Shown here in pieces: positions 26,961-32,756 of a stretch of DNA of 64,000 bases. The position numbers and the translations under genes are program-made. Origin of the DNA: Candidatus Rokuibacteriota bacterium (GTDB lineage: Bacteria; Methylomirabilota; Methylomirabilia; Rokubacteriales; CSP1-6). The stretch is from positions 62,001 through 126,000 of the forward strand of contig QHRU01000057.1 in the NCBI GenBank assembly GCA_003220225.1, in the 5' to 3' direction. Each line of letters begins with the position of its first letter. The first letter of the stretch is position 1. The notes beneath the pieces were generated by a model that saw only the letters and a program-made list of their open reading frames with translations, was not told the DNA's origin and ran no database searches.

Positions 26961-27899
26961 CTAGCTGGTCGTGATGGCAGTGACGTCCTCCGCGCGAACG
27001 GTCGCCTCGTCGCGTCTGGCACGTTCGAACCGCGCGACCACGACGGTGATGTTGTCGGATCCCCCACGTTCGTTCGCGAGGGCAACCAGCTGCTCGCAGG
27101 CGGCGGCGAGTTTCGTCTGAGTCGTGACGATGTCCACGAGCTCGCCTTCCGCCACGCAAGACCACAGCCCGTCAGAGCACAGCACTAAGACGTCCCCGCT
27201 GCGCATGCAATGCTGTGAGACGTCGGCGATGATCTCGGGTTGAGGGCCGAGGGCCCGAAGCAGAACGTTCCGGTGCGGGCTGCTGGCGGCTGCCTCGGGG
27301 GTCAGCTCACCTGTGTCCAGCAGGTGTTGAACCAGAGAATGGTCCTGGGTGATTCGTTGGGCGCAGCCCTCACGAACGACATAGGCTCGGCTGTCACCGA
27401 CGTGGCCCACGTAGAGGTGATCACCGAGCAGCGCAGCCGCGGTGGCCGTCGTCCCCATGCCCTTCAGCCCAGCGCGGGCGTTGGCATAGGCGTGGATCTC
27501 GCGGTTCGCGCTCTCCATCGCCCCGAGCAGACACTCTCGCAGGTGCGCGGAGGTTCGCCGCTCTTGATCCCGCCACCACTCGAAGAGACACGCGACGATC
27601 GTATTCGCGGCCATGGCGCTGGCCACTTCACCCGCCTCGGCACCGCCCATCCCGTCCGCGACGACGAGCAGCGCGCCCATCGTTGGGATTCGATGCTCGA
27701 CGCCGGCGGGTCGAGTCCAGGTTGAACCCGTCAAGTCCACGATCAAGAAGTAATCCTCGTTCTGCTGGCGGATCTTGCCGACATGGCTCATCGCGACAGC
27801 GTTGACGCTCAATGGCGCCGTCGCGTGACCGTGGCGCATGACACGGCGCCAGATGTCGACGATCTGTCCAAGACCTCGCTCGATCACGAATTTGCTCAC
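26961..27899 (-). CDS. PP2C-family serine/threonine protein phosphatase
   Basis: A 312-residue bacterial PP2C (PrpC/Stp type). Metal and phosphate motifs are complete: GKIRQQNEDYFL, VVADGMGGAEAGEVAS, GTTATAAALL, HVGDSRAYVVR, ITQDHSLVQ, LVLCSDGLWSCV and GGSDNITVVVARF. It removes phosphate from Ser/Thr residues with Mn/Mg and should oppose the kinase encoded two genes upstream. Its start overlaps the lipoprotein stop in an ATGA junction. An N-terminal extension of about 35 residues precedes the catalytic core. Confidence 0.95.
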   Translation of the reverse strand: MSKFVIERGLGQIVDIWRRVMRHGHATAPLSVNAVAMSHVGKIRQQNEDYFLIVDLTGSTWTRPAGVEHRIPTMGALLVVADGMGGAEAGEVASAMAANTIVACLFEWWRDQERRTSAHLRECLLGAMESANREIHAYANARAGLKGMGTTATAAALLGDHLYVGHVGDSRAYVVREGCAQRITQDHSLVQHLLDTGELTPEAAASSPHRNVLLRALGPQPEIIADVSQHCMRSGDVLVLCSDGLWSCVAEGELVDIVTTQTKLAAACEQLVALANERGGSDNITVVVARFERARRDEATVRAEDVTAITTS

Positions 27900-28645
27900 G
27901 GGCGTTTGCGTTGCACGTCGGCGATCAGCGAGCGAACGCCGGGCGGCGCCTGTTGTGTGCAGGAGGCCAGCGCGCCGTCCAGGGTGGCGAGCCGCTTCAG
28001 CTCATCCCGGACGCGTTCCCGCTCCTGGTTGGCGAAATACGTGAACGCGAGGTAGCACCTCGTCTCCGCCAGCTGCTTCACGCGCATCTCGCCGTCGCTC
28101 AGATCCTCGAGATCGACGAGGGCCGCGCGCAGTAGCCTGAGAGCGTCACGAAACCGCGCTGCCGCGTAGGCGTCCTTCGCTCGTGCGAGAACGTGCGAGG
28201 GTTCGGCCGCCTGATCACGCGCACGCGCCTCGGTCAACGCGATCGCCATTCGCTGGTGCTCCTCGGCCACCTTGGGCATTCCGAGGCCGGTATACGCGCG
28301 CCGGAGCGCCTCGTACACGTCGCCGAGTTCGGTGAGGCGGAGCGGTCGGCGCTGTATTCCTTCGACGTCCCACACGGCCCGATTCAGGGCCGCCAGCGCC
28401 CCCGGATAGTTCTTCGCCTGGAGCTCTCGCTGGCCGCGACTGAGGTTCGCGCGCGCGTCGGGATCGGCGCCCGCCAATCGGTATCGTACCGGACGGACGA
28501 TGTGGGTCTGCAATATCGTCGTCGCATCCGTCGAGACCTTCGCCATGGATGCGCAGGCCGAAAGCGACAGGCATCCCGCGACGAGCGCCAGGGTCGTCCA
28601 GCGACGACGGTTATCGCGCGAGGAACCGATGTGTCCGGAAGTCAT
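27896..28645 (-). CDS. Putative lipoprotein with TPR-like helical repeats
   Basis: A 249-residue protein. The N-terminus has Arg residues then a hydrophobic stretch ending in LSLSACAS, a lipobox with Cys as the lipidation site. The rest is helical with TPR-like spacing (RELQAKNYPGALAALNRAVW and DAYAAARFRDALRLLRAALV). It sits between a transmembrane kinase and a phosphatase, overlapping both genes, which suggests an envelope component or sensor partner of the phosphorylation system. No catalytic motif is visible. Confidence 0.8.
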   Translation of the reverse strand: MTSGHIGSSRDNRRRWTTLALVAGCLSLSACASMAKVSTDATTILQTHIVRPVRYRLAGADPDARANLSRGQRELQAKNYPGALAALNRAVWDVEGIQRRPLRLTELGDVYEALRRAYTGLGMPKVAEEHQRMAIALTEARARDQAAEPSHVLARAKDAYAAARFRDALRLLRAALVDLEDLSDGEMRVKQLAETRCYLAFTYFANQERERVRDELKRLATLDGALASCTQQAPPGVRSLIADVQRKRP

Positions 28646-30092
28646 AACTCATCCGCAGTGGGTTGTCGCGCGTGTGCTCCTCGAGGACGACGATCAGGCG
28701 CTCCGGACTCCGGTCGTTCATGGATTCGAAATAGAGCCGGTGTCGGCCGGTGCCGATGCGGAGACACGCGCGCGGCGTGTCTCCGACGTGCCGGCCATCG
28801 ACATGGACCGTCGCGAAAGGCACGGCATTGACACTCACGCAGCCGAACTTGTCGACGCCCTGGGCCGGCGATGACGCGGCCACGCGATTGACGGCGACCT
28901 CGCCGGGCCGATAATTCGTGGCGGCGATCGAGCCCGTGCTCGTTGCTGTGCCCGGTTCGTCGCCCGCGACCCCGACCACCACGGCAGCGGCGCCGCTGCC
29001 CGCTGGTGCGGCGGACGGCGCCACTGGTCTGACGGCATCCACCGTCTGGCGGTGAGGTTGGCGCTCGCGCGGTGCCGCTTGCCATACGGGCGCGACGATG
29101 AATGGCAGGATCGCCAGGGCCGTCGCGCCGAGAACCGTCATTCCGAGGGCGGTGCCGTGTCGGCGCGCCGCCTGGATTCCCTGCTGCAGAACCGCGGCCG
29201 GCCCGCGCCGATCGCGTACGGCCAGCGCCCGTGTGAGCGCGTCGGCGAAGGCCCCGGCATCGGGGTAGCGGTCATCGGGGTCCTTGCTCATCGCGCGCTT
29301 CACCACCGCGTCGAGCGCCGGCGACACGGCCACATTGCGCTCACGGGCGGGCAGCGGCTCGAGATGGAGCACGTCGTCGAGGACCTGGGCGAGGTCCTCA
29401 CCGGGGAACGGCCGCTCTCCGACCAGTGCTTCGTACAAGACGACCCCGAGTGAGAATAAATCGCTCCGCGCGTCCGCCTCGACGCCGCGGACCTGCTCGG
29501 GCGACATGTATGCCGGCGTGCCAACCATGACGCCCGGCTGGGCCGACTGCGTGCCCACAACGCGGGCGACGCCGAAGTCGGTGAGCTTCACATGCCAGGC
29601 ATCATCCACCATGATGTTGCTGCTCTTGACGTCGCGATGGACGACCCCCTCGCCGTGCGCATACTGAAGGGCGCGACACGCCTGCACGACGATGTGGACG
29701 ACTTTGTCGGGCGGTGGCGGGCCGGCGGCGATCAGGTCGGCCAGCGTCCGGCCCTTGACGTACTCCATCACGACATACGGCACGCCGGCGCACACGTCGA
29801 CGTCGTAGATCGTGACGATTCCTGGATGCGTCAGGCGCGCGGCCGCAGTCGCCTCCTGATACAACCGTTGCGTTACGGCGCTGACATCGAACCCCTGGGT
29901 CGCGTCGTCACGCGCAATTGTCTTCACGGCCACGGTACGGTGCAGCTCGAGATCGCGGGCGCGATAGACGATCCCCATGGCGCCCTCGCCGAGGACCTCC
30001 AGAAATTCGTAACGCCCGCTGGGCGGCCGAACGGGTTGCGCAGCGACGGCGTCCGCTGCGTGACCGCTGATCATCGTCCGGGCTGTGTCCAC
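28611..30092 (-). CDS. Transmembrane serine/threonine protein kinase with extracytoplasmic PEGA-like domain
   Basis: About 493 residues. The Hanks-type kinase core is complete: Gly loop VLGEGAMGIVYRARD, catalytic Lys in VAVKTIA, HRDVKSSNIMV loop, DFG in LTDFGVARV and GTPAYMSPEQV. A single membrane helix (MTVLGATALAILPFIVAPVW) is followed by a Pro/Ala-rich linker and a PEGA-like C-terminal domain (VDGRHVGDTPRACLRIGTG). Start choice is open: TTG 30134 overlaps the FHA stop, GTG 30092 has GAGGGA upstream, ATG 30074 lacks a ribosome site; I use GTG. It phosphorylates Ser/Thr targets, possibly the FHA protein encoded just upstream. Confidence 0.93.
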   Translation of the reverse strand: MDTARTMISGHAADAVAAQPVRPPSGRYEFLEVLGEGAMGIVYRARDLELHRTVAVKTIARDDATQGFDVSAVTQRLYQEATAAARLTHPGIVTIYDVDVCAGVPYVVMEYVKGRTLADLIAAGPPPPDKVVHIVVQACRALQYAHGEGVVHRDVKSSNIMVDDAWHVKLTDFGVARVVGTQSAQPGVMVGTPAYMSPEQVRGVEADARSDLFSLGVVLYEALVGERPFPGEDLAQVLDDVLHLEPLPARERNVAVSPALDAVVKRAMSKDPDDRYPDAGAFADALTRALAVRDRRGPAAVLQQGIQAARRHGTALGMTVLGATALAILPFIVAPVWQAAPRERQPHRQTVDAVRPVAPSAAPAGSGAAAVVVGVAGDEPGTATSTGSIAATNYRPGEVAVNRVAASSPAQGVDKFGCVSVNAVPFATVHVDGRHVGDTPRACLRIGTGRHRLYFESMNDRSPERLIVVLEEHTRDNPLRMSYDFRTHRFLAR

Positions 30093-30117
30093 GTGGTGCC
30101 GTCCCTCGGTCGGCGCG

Positions 30118-30822
30118 CTAACCCACGTCGGCAAAGAAGGTCAGGCGTAGACCGCCGACGTCGATCACGTCGCCGCCTTTCAGGATCGCCTGGGTGACGG
30201 TGGCTCGATTCACCCGCATCCGGTACCAGCTCGAAAGATTTCGCACCTCGACACCGTGGCGGGTCCGGATCACCAGGAGATGATGCTTGGGGCCCACAGG
30301 CACACGCAGGTCGCACAGCGCGGAGCGACCGATCAAGACGGCACTGCGTTCCGCACGTTCGAGGTAGAACGTATCCCCTGTGCTCGCCGCTTCCCACTTC
30401 AGATGGGCGCGCCGCTTGAGCGCCGAAGACTTCTGCAGACGCTCCAGCTCGTGGAGATCCATCTGGAACGTCTCGGTCGGCCGCGGCAGGTCAGGCTTCG
30501 CAGCATCCTTGTCACGCACCGGCTCCTTCAATGCTCGATCGAAGAAGATCGAGAATTTCCCGAATGAGATCTCATCCCCGCGTGTGAGCGGCGCGGGCCC
30601 GGTCAGCCGGTGCCCATTCAGGGACGTGCCGTTTGCGGACTTGAGATCCTCTACAATCCAGCGGCCGTCCGAGTCGAGCCGGACCTGTGCTTGCCGCCGC
30701 GACACCGAAGGGTTGTCGATGACGACGTCCATGTCGTCACCCCGTCCGATGTTGATGACGACGCCGTTCAGGTCGTACGCCCGAAGCGGCGTCCGCTCTG
30801 CTACGAGAGTCAATGTTGGCAT
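30118..30822 (-). CDS. Double FHA-domain protein
   Basis: A 234-residue cytoplasmic protein with two forkhead-associated domains. The first (about 20-90) shows NIGRGDDMDVVIDNPSVSRR and LKSANGTSLNG, with the GR, SxxR/H and NG residues that bind phosphothreonine. The second (about 150-234) is more degenerate (VLIGRSALCDLRVPVG) and keeps the N-terminal GR but not the SxxH block. ATG 30822 is chosen because GGGAG lies 8 nt upstream and the protein starts at the first FHA strand; the open frame upstream to 31023 looks non-coding. It would dock phosphorylated kinase or substrates. Confidence 0.88.
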   Translation of the reverse strand: MPTLTLVAERTPLRAYDLNGVVINIGRGDDMDVVIDNPSVSRRQAQVRLDSDGRWIVEDLKSANGTSLNGHRLTGPAPLTRGDEISFGKFSIFFDRALKEPVRDKDAAKPDLPRPTETFQMDLHELERLQKSSALKRRAHLKWEAASTGDTFYLERAERSAVLIGRSALCDLRVPVGPKHHLLVIRTRHGVEVRNLSSWYRMRVNRATVTQAILKGGDVIDVGGLRLTFFADVG

Positions 30823-31083
30823 GGGTGGGCTCCCGATTGTCGTATCGCGCTGTTGACCGCAGTGTTCACGTGCCATCGGAGTGACACGCCCACTGCGCCG
30901 CCGCTTGTGGTGAGCACGTCTATCTGTGCTACGCAAGGACCACACCAGAGACGCGACGGCGGCATATGTCACGGAAGTGTTTGGCTTTTTCTCGGTGCCG
31001 GTTCCCGGACAGAGCAGCGCCATCTGGCTAGAATCTGATCAGTGCGCAGTAATGCGCCGCCTCAGCTGCAGGGAGGAGAAGTT

Positions 31084-31122: not shown

Positions 31123-31662
31123 CTAGGAGCCCGAGGCCTTGAGCGCCGCCAGGACCTCAGAGGGCTCGAGCAGCATGGTCGGGTTCTCGAGAATCTTGAC
31201 GAACTTCACGACGCCGTTCTTGTCGATGATGAAGTACGCGCGCTTGGGGTAGCGGTAGATCGGGCTCTTCTCGTCCGTCACCAGCGCGCCGTACGCGGGC
31301 AGCATCTGGCGGCGGAAGTCCGAGAGCTGCAGGTGCTTGATGCCGTTTTCCTTCTTCCACGCCGCGAGGGCCTGCCACGCATCACCGCTCACGCCCACGA
31401 CCTGGGCGCCGGCGGCTTCGAACTGCGGCAGCGCCGCGTCGAAGCCCGCCACTTCCTTCGTTCAGGTGCTGGTGAACGCGGCGACGAACGTGTAGAGGAC
31501 GACGGGCCCCTTCGCCGTCAGGTCGGTCAGCTTCACCGTCTTGCCGTCGGGACCGTTGAGCGCGAAGTCAGGCGCCTTGTCCCCGACCTGGAGCGCGTGC
31601 GCTGCCCCGGCCAGCGTCAGACCGAGTACGACGGTCACGACCAACGCGATCACGGTTCGCAT
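31123..31662 (-). CDS. Exported peroxiredoxin with selenocysteine at the peroxidatic position
   Basis: Two short frames, 31662-31462 and 31461-31123, are the same reading frame interrupted by one TGA (31462-31464). The joined 179-residue protein has a Sec signal peptide (MRTVIALVVTVVLGLTLAG to AHA), a VGDKAPDFAL start, then FVAAFTST-U-TKEVAGFD, followed by a standard AhpC/TSA fold (GVSGDAWQALAAW, PKRAYFIIDKNGVV). In AhpC/TSA and BCP proteins the residue before TKE is the peroxidatic Cys; here it is UGA (codon 67). The whole protein has no Cys, so it would be a 1-Sec enzyme. AAAGGAGG precedes ATG 31662. It would reduce peroxides in the periplasm. Sec-peroxiredoxins are known in other bacteria. 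Confidence 0.85.
31425..31437 (-). promoter_or_regulatory. Candidate SECIS hairpin of the peroxiredoxin gene
   Basis: Minus-strand GCGGC (31437-31433), loop GCT, then GCCGC (31429-31425). The stem starts 25 nt after the TGA and the loop has G first, within the range usual for bacterial SECIS elements. A second option is GAAG/CTTC around a TGGCGGG loop (31455-31441), nearer the TGA. Both are weaker than the merB-like hairpin, and this region is GC-rich enough to give chance stems. Confidence 0.35.
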
Positions 31663-31697
31663 GGTGCCTCCTTTGGCAGCAGAGTCTCTGGCATCGG

Positions 31698-32756
31698 TCA
31701 GCGTGCCGGGCGGACACCCGCCGCGGCGAGCCTCGGGAATACAACGTCCCTGAACGCGGCAAGTTCCGGCTCCGGCAGCCCGAACGTGAGCAGCGGCATC
31801 AGGTAGAGGTTACGCACACCGAGCTTCGTCATCTCGACGATGCGCGCGGCGCAGTCGACCGGCGTGCCCACGAGCCCGAGCGCGTCGCAGAGCTGCGCGA
31901 CCACGTCGTCGGGCACGAACGACGTCGCGGCGATGGCCGCCTCCCAGTCGTGCGCGTGCGAGAGATCCGGATAAATCTTCCACACCGCCTCCGGGATCTC
32001 GAGCTTCGGCAGCCGCAGCCCGGCCGGCTCGACCCAGTGCCCGCCCCAGCGCAGCACTCCCCAGTGCACCGCGGTCGGTCGCGCCAGACGCCGCGCCTCG
32101 GCCGTCGTGACCGCCACGCCGACGCGGACCGCCCAGACGATCTCGAGGTCGTCGAGCCGCCGGCCGGAGCGCCTGGCGCCGCGCTCGAGATGCTCGAGGG
32201 CTTTCTCGACGATGCCGCGGTTGAAGCCGACCAGCAGCAACGCGCCGTCGGCGATCTCGCCGGCCAGCTCGATCGCTTTCGGACCCGACGCCGCCATCAC
32301 GATCGGGATGCGCCGCTTCGCGGCGTAGCCGAGGCGGCCGGGCGTGCCGTCGAAATCCACCGACTCGCCGGCGAGCAGACCGCGCACGGTGGCGATGCAC
32401 GCGCGCATCTCGGCCAGCGTCGCCGGCTTGCGGCCGATCGTGCTCGCGGACGTGTAGCCGGTGCCGATGACGAACTTGACGCGCCCCGGAGCCAGCTCCT
32501 CGACGGTCTGGATCGCGCCGGCCAGCACCGAGGGGTGGCGCGTGAACGGGTTGGTCACGGCCGGAAACAGCGTCAGCCGCGAGGTGGCGGCCGCCGCCTG
32601 GCCGAGCACGACGAACGTGTCGCGCGACAGCATCTGGCTGTCGAGGATCCCGGCGCCGTCGAAGCCCGCCGCCTCGATGGACCGGAGCAGACGCATGAGG
32701 TCGGGCATCGGCGCCGTGCCGGGGACGCGCAGGTGGACACGGACAGGCTCGCTCAC
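31698..32756 (-). CDS. LLM-class flavin-dependent oxidoreductase (F420/FMN, Mer-like)
   Basis: A 352-residue luciferase-like TIM barrel. Features: LLRSIEAAGFDGAGILDSQ at the start, TNPFTRHPSVLAGAIQTVEE, FVIGTGYTSAS, and IPIVMAASGPKAIELAGEIADG, the pattern of the 5,10-methylenetetrahydromethanopterin reductase-like subgroup that often uses F420. GTG start at 32756. It is followed by the seleno-peroxiredoxin on the same strand after 35 nt and diverges from the Vgb-like gene. Substrate unknown; desulfurisation or ring oxidation are family possibilities. Confidence 0.88.
   Translation of the reverse strand: MSEPVRVHLRVPGTAPMPDLMRLLRSIEAAGFDGAGILDSQMLSRDTFVVLGQAAAATSRLTLFPAVTNPFTRHPSVLAGAIQTVEELAPGRVKFVIGTGYTSASTIGRKPATLAEMRACIATVRGLLAGESVDFDGTPGRLGYAAKRRIPIVMAASGPKAIELAGEIADGALLLVGFNRGIVEKALEHLERGARRSGRRLDDLEIVWAVRVGVAVTTAEARRLARPTAVHWGVLRWGGHWVEPAGLRLPKLEIPEAVWKIYPDLSHAHDWEAAIAATSFVPDDVVAQLCDALGLVGTPVDCAARIVEMTKLGVRNLYLMPLLTFGLPEPELAAFRDVVFPRLAAAGVRPAR

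Follow-up and report, generated by a model that had tools for sequence, protein, structure and literature searches.

A probably exported, cysteine-free selenocysteine peroxiredoxin of Rokubacteria and its candidate selenoprotein reductant

The locus and its in-frame TGA

The stretch of DNA analysed here, 64,000 nucleotides long and hereafter called the window, comes from Candidatus Rokubacteria, which are soil and groundwater bacteria. Its minus strand (the earlier note was silent on strand) carries a gene that, when translated with TGA as selenocysteine (Sec, U), gives a protein of 179 amino acids with U67 within AFTST-U-TKEV and with zero cysteines, bearing out the earlier reading of a Cys-free protein whose single redox residue is U67. 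A purine-rich site like the one listed below lies 5′ of nearly all orthologue starts. The features are:

31667-31674, minus strand: strong Shine-Dalgarno sequence AAAGGAGG, 4 nt 5′ of the ATG
31123-31662, minus strand: Sec-peroxiredoxin (Sec-Prx) gene, 179 aa, U67, TAG stop
31660-31662, minus strand: start codon ATG
31594-31662, minus strand: Sec-type signal peptide predicted by eye, residues 1-23, without a lipobox Cys
31483-31485, minus strand: Val60, where the Prx motif has Pro; I/V/L/G in 36/36 copies
31471-31473, minus strand: Thr64, the Thr of the T-x-x-C/U motif, kept in 33/36 aligned copies
31462-31464, minus strand: UGA read as selenocysteine 67 at the peroxidatic position, from TGA conservation among orthologues
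31414-31446, minus strand: candidate SECIS hairpin, from a synonymous-recoding null and covariation
31240-31242, minus strand: Arg141, invariant (36/36 copies), counterpart of the Prx catalytic Arg
31123-31125, minus strand: stop codon TAG

We scanned 95 genomes of the phylum, taking a score above 220 bits as orthologue level. The 54 copies at that level, 45 of which by our reading belong to the window's subtype and eight to a second subtype (221-237 bits), have exactly one TGA in 53 cases and Cys in one; the TGA occupies a single alignment column in all copies that were aligned, and Cys homologues carry Cys at that site. Six relatives from Betaproteobacteria (about 43% identity) have TGA at the site and no Cys, and no further close member turned up among 274 genomes scanned from the class to which the betaproteobacterial match belongs. 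On both sides of the TGA codon dN was far below dS, with mostly synonymous substitutions (for the window copy versus the orthologue L018, dN 0.046 and dS 0.42 before the TGA, and 0.066 and 0.44 after it). One TGA in 53 of 54 copies, together with dN far below dS on either side, excludes chance and decay. The decaying set of orthologues that the earlier note had proposed to look for was not found among these copies: the lone Cys version (G033:C79, L051:434-982), with TGT for TGA in a context that now reads AANKTC, is a nested exception, placed in our tree on a long branch inside the Sec clade, and looks like a Sec-to-Cys reversion.

The window's genome assembly (6.03 Mb in 167 contigs, 97% complete) holds all of the Sec machinery whose presence was to be checked: a tRNA-Sec above the Rfam cut-off, SelB (372 bits), a SelA-like gene directly upstream of selB and recognised by sequence and position, and SelD (335 bits), with its own in-frame TGA in SCAGU. 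One could still regard the TGA as a genuine stop or as a sequencing error, and the gene as a pseudogene or the source of a truncated product, in an assembly that is unfinished (167 contigs) and where the operon-type paralogue (L048, see below) is broken. The identical TGA nevertheless recurs in 53 of 54 copies over many assemblies and again in Betaproteobacteria, with purifying selection 3′ of it, the Sec machinery and the hairpin described below, and we consider the probability of this explanation negligible. The alternative that a reassigned code or suppression puts some amino acid other than Sec at the TGA has the open frame through the TGA as its one argument; set against this are the complete Sec machinery, the position of the TGA at the catalytic Cys column and the use of TGA as a stop by related genes (many orthologues end in it), which make it very improbable. 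Conservation, dN/dS and the Sec machinery thus rule out a pseudogene, a true stop or other recoding. With TGA conservation, machinery and hairpin all supporting selenocysteine at the peroxidatic site, we strongly infer from these sequences that the UGA is decoded as selenocysteine.

The candidate SECIS hairpin has a stem of 8 bp plus 5 bp and a GCU apical loop, the loop lying 29 nt after the UGA, and in the window copy 57 nt counted from the UGA have a folding energy of -28 kcal/mol; loop, 5+8 bp stem, 29-nt distance and MFE of -28 all agree with published bSECIS rules (PMC13188914). That model also asks for a G among the first two bases of the loop, which the window copy has and many orthologues lack. 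Compared with synonymous recodings that left the peptides unchanged, the hairpin region had a mean z of -2.1 in 29 Rokubacterial copies, and windows along the gene clear of the hairpin stretch had z within 0.7. Pairing for the named hairpin was found in 93.8% of cells, and four of its pairs showed double changes versus 1.0 in shuffles. The hairpin is gone (z +1.6) in the Cys orthologue L051, and the z values of betaproteobacterial copies are weak (-0.3 to -1.2). SECIS candidates had earlier been placed at 31425-31461; there is indeed a hairpin near there, but the position that finds support is 31414-31446. Rfam at the gathering threshold gave no match in the window, which is unsurprising since bSECIS elements differ among genes.

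As a side observation, two more Prx-like genes in this genome bear TGA (L049 and L050, in G000:C108 and G000:C144, with WTPGUSKC and YWUPFC), hinting at a large selenoproteome.

Fold, active-site motif and export

Homology extends to both sides of the TGA, as had been claimed: Pfam AhpC-TSA (PF00578) matches residues 26-154 across it (104 bits versus a cut-off of 26, E=5e-30), and sequence alignments to Prx of the PDB also continue across the TGA, with the crystal Cys or Ser opposite U67, which confirms the peroxidatic Cys position of the in-frame TGA at 31462-31464. The AF2 model of Sec-Prx (mean pLDDT 89.5) has a Prx fold, matching Bcp4 (3hjp; 33% sequence identity) with Z 25.7 and rmsd 2.1 over 157 residues, and its structural matches are Bcp4/PrxQ and AhpE (Z about 24.5 for the latter). 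Archaeal Bcp4/PrxQ (3hjp, 4gqf, 2cx3) and AhpE of Mycobacterium tuberculosis are the nearest solved sequences or structures; AhpE is titled a 1-Cys Prx, which resembles the single-Sec layout here, but all of these use Cys and none is paired with a TlpA-like selenoprotein of the kind described below.

In an alignment of 36 copies (from Rokubacteria and the six Betaproteobacteria, with the Cys orthologue L051 among them), the Thr three residues before U67 (T64) is present in 33 and R141 in all 36. Where the Prx PxxxTxxC motif has its Pro, every one of the 36 has I, V, L or G, unlike two PDB chains aligned to Sec-Prx, which keep the Pro; this loss was absent from the earlier note. Cys is missing outside the catalytic position in 36/36, so that the lack of a resolving Cys, previously noted for the window protein, holds for the whole clade. 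Sec-Prx scored 38.8 bits with NF040737 (PrxU), whose cut-off is 270, and no NCBIfam model covers either Sec-Prx or its partner Sec-TlpA at its cut-off. Because the motif Pro is lost in the clade, 'peroxiredoxin' here names a fold and a likely chemistry, and Sec-Prx is, as judged from its sequence, a motif-divergent Prx-fold variant that probably works like a Prx.

The N-terminus, MRTVIALVVTVVLGLTLAGAAHA-LQ, has n, h and c regions and an AxA-type site, judged by eye, and by the same means all orthologues keep the signal-peptide character with a changed sequence. The signal peptide proposed earlier thus finds support across the clade in the character of the N-terminal sequences, and Sec-Prx is probably exported.

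A neighbouring Sec-TlpA and the arrangement of the genes

Directly after the Prx gene in 30 of the 45 copies of the window's subtype lies a second gene, a conserved neighbour that the earlier note lacked. It encodes a TlpA/ResA-like protein, Sec-TlpA, with a signal peptide and a TGA within W-x-T-W-U-x-x-C; the mature form has one Sec and one Cys only, and its model shows a ResA/TlpA fold (pLDDT 92.4). Stop and start codons overlap (ATGA/GTGA) in the operon loci inspected, L053 being without a clear start. Adjacent or not, Sec-TlpA is encoded in 39/39 genomes with the window's Prx subtype, and raw counts over the 95 genomes, which ignore kinship, place Sec-TlpA in 42, TlpA only in three and neither gene in 53. 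Copies of the second Prx subtype have a Cys-TlpA directly upstream (7/8), and in the six Betaproteobacteria, all of which have tRNA-Sec, Sec-TlpA is directly upstream of Sec-Prx, the order being reversed. The search for a reductant that had been recommended thus yields a candidate, an exported Sec-x-x-Cys TlpA-like selenoprotein, and on sequence and gene association Sec-TlpA is the best candidate and most likely the reductant of Sec-Prx. In some operons a small cupin-domain gene follows Sec-TlpA with overlapping or adjoining codons (L048:1920 onward; L025, PF12973). A locus titled Bordetella parapertussis (L068, MAG MaH-09apr19-209) has the same pair as environmental Betaproteobacteria MAGs, and its species label is probably wrong.

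The Sec-TlpA of the window's genome lies on another contig (C113, L048:1386-1919). The operon-type Prx beside it (L048:1198-1389, G000:C113) has an internal in-frame deletion that joins MTGSRS straight to YDAVITD, leaving neither signal peptide nor Sec site; among relatives, the operon Prx is part of an intact pair in G001 (L054) and is differently broken in G002 (L042). Provided that the assembly is correct, the genome has no complete Prx of this subtype other than the window gene. Detached Prx copies, the window's included, nest within the operon clade in our tree, so detachment is derived, and since the partner gene is non-adjacent in this genome, shared regulation is not required. In L055 the Prx lies in a different gene context. 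A conserved operon at the window gene was considered and rejected, the upstream luciferase-like gene (31698-32756, minus strand) being common to G001 only. Just downstream of the Prx are genes for a PP2C-like phosphatase, a Ser/Thr kinase and an FHA-domain protein (26961-31023, minus strand), a cluster not found beside the Prx in the relatives checked.

Two DsbD/CcdA-type transporters (DsbD_TM) are encoded in the window's genome. At L094:2673-4050 (G000:C159), about 4 kb from selD, a Cys-TlpA gene is followed by a CcdA-type DsbD_TM gene, and it is possible that this pair supplies electrons to exported thioredoxins. The position of this Cys-TlpA directly upstream of the CcdA gene, and the 15 of 45 subtype copies, including the window's, that do not adjoin Sec-TlpA, would fit a 1-Sec Prx served by some other reductant, whether a Cys-TlpA, a CcdA-linked thioredoxin, a low-molecular-weight thiol or sulfide. 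Sec-TlpA is, however, still encoded in every genome with the Prx subtype, and we find another reductant rather unlikely.

A proposed envelope relay and its relation to known systems

We consider it likely, from sequence and gene neighbourhood, that the window gene encodes an exported 1-Sec Prx reduced by Sec-TlpA, in parallel to the ScsB-TlpA-PprX pathway of Caulobacter; we infer peroxidase activity and electron transfer. In such a scheme SelB and tRNA-Sec would decode the UGA with the help of the 3′ hairpin, and the signal peptide would direct the protein through the Sec translocon to fold in the periplasm. There, going by the chemistry of the family, the selenolate near Thr64 and Arg141 would reduce H2O2, an organic peroxide or peroxynitrite and become a selenenic acid. 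As Sec-Prx has no resolving thiol, the reduction of this selenenic acid must fall to a partner; the U-x-x-C of Sec-TlpA could form a mixed selenenylsulfide or a diselenide, to be resolved by the TlpA Cys, and electrons may reach Sec-TlpA from the cytoplasm through a candidate CcdA/DsbD-type transporter. The broader proposition, of a two-selenoprotein, peroxide-reducing relay in the cell envelope of Rokubacteria and some Betaproteobacteria, in which exported 1-Sec Prx and Sec-x-x-Cys TlpA are translationally coupled and the Prx selenium is resolved between proteins as selenenylsulfide or diselenide, we hold to be evenly balanced.

A different function for the same pair would be that of an exported Sec thiol/disulfide or selenenylsulfide oxidoreductase of Prx fold, its chemistry changed by the loss of Pro and its TlpA devoted to disulfide or metallocofactor biogenesis. 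The replacement of the PxxxTxxC Pro in 36/36 copies and the constant association with a TlpA/ResA-like protein, whose relatives work in cytochrome and oxidase assembly, point that way, but Thr64 (33/36) and Arg141 (36/36) are retained, the fold is that of a Prx and a lone Sec without a second thiol is poorly fitted for disulfide exchange; we regard this function as improbable and prefer that of a peroxidase reduced by Sec-TlpA.

Catalogued selenoproteins include Sec-Prx of TxxU type and Trx-like UxxC proteins; earlier reports also describe other pairs of selenoprotein genes and a Methylomirabilota MAG for which 63 selenoproteins were predicted (PMC13188914; PMC2398784). With TxxU Sec-Prx (PMC13188914; PrxU of Eubacterium acidaminophilum, NF040737) the clade has in common the AhpC/TSA fold and a peroxidatic Sec after T-x-x, but differs in its predicted export and in its lack of Cys and of the PxxxTxxU Pro; the window protein also scores far below the NF040737 cut-off. 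Trx-like or ResA-like UxxC selenoproteins (GOS Trx-like 1; NF041054, WAxxUGC_long) resemble the partner in ResA/TlpA fold and Sec-x-x-Cys, whereas the partner falls below every curated NCBIfam cut-off and is coupled to Sec-Prx. The cell-envelope peroxide pathway ScsB-TlpA-PprX (Cho et al., 2012), as described in PMC5403849, shares an exported Prx fed by an exported TlpA-like thioredoxin and a DsbD-like membrane source of electrons; here, by contrast, Prx and adjoining TlpA are selenoproteins and the membrane component is a candidate of CcdA type, the likeness being one between that description and genes. In the literature that we covered on Rokubacteria or Methylomirabilota selenoproteins and on exported Sec-Prx, we found no account of the clade, of a Sec-Prx that is exported and lacks both Cys and the motif Pro, or of a pairing with Sec-TlpA. 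Sec-Prx itself is known; the Cys-free exported clade, the motif Pro loss and the two-selenoprotein pairing look new.

Standard annotation splits such genes in two or shortens them in Rokubacteria genomes. The clade presents a type of Prx unable to make its own disulfide, for which we propose a specific reductant. If our proposal is true, the logic of ScsB-TlpA-PprX has a selenium form, and bacterial selenium chemistry operates in the more oxidising envelope, where the resistance of Sec to over-oxidation could help. Altogether, our analyses suggest that a detoxification relay based on selenium works outside the cytoplasm.
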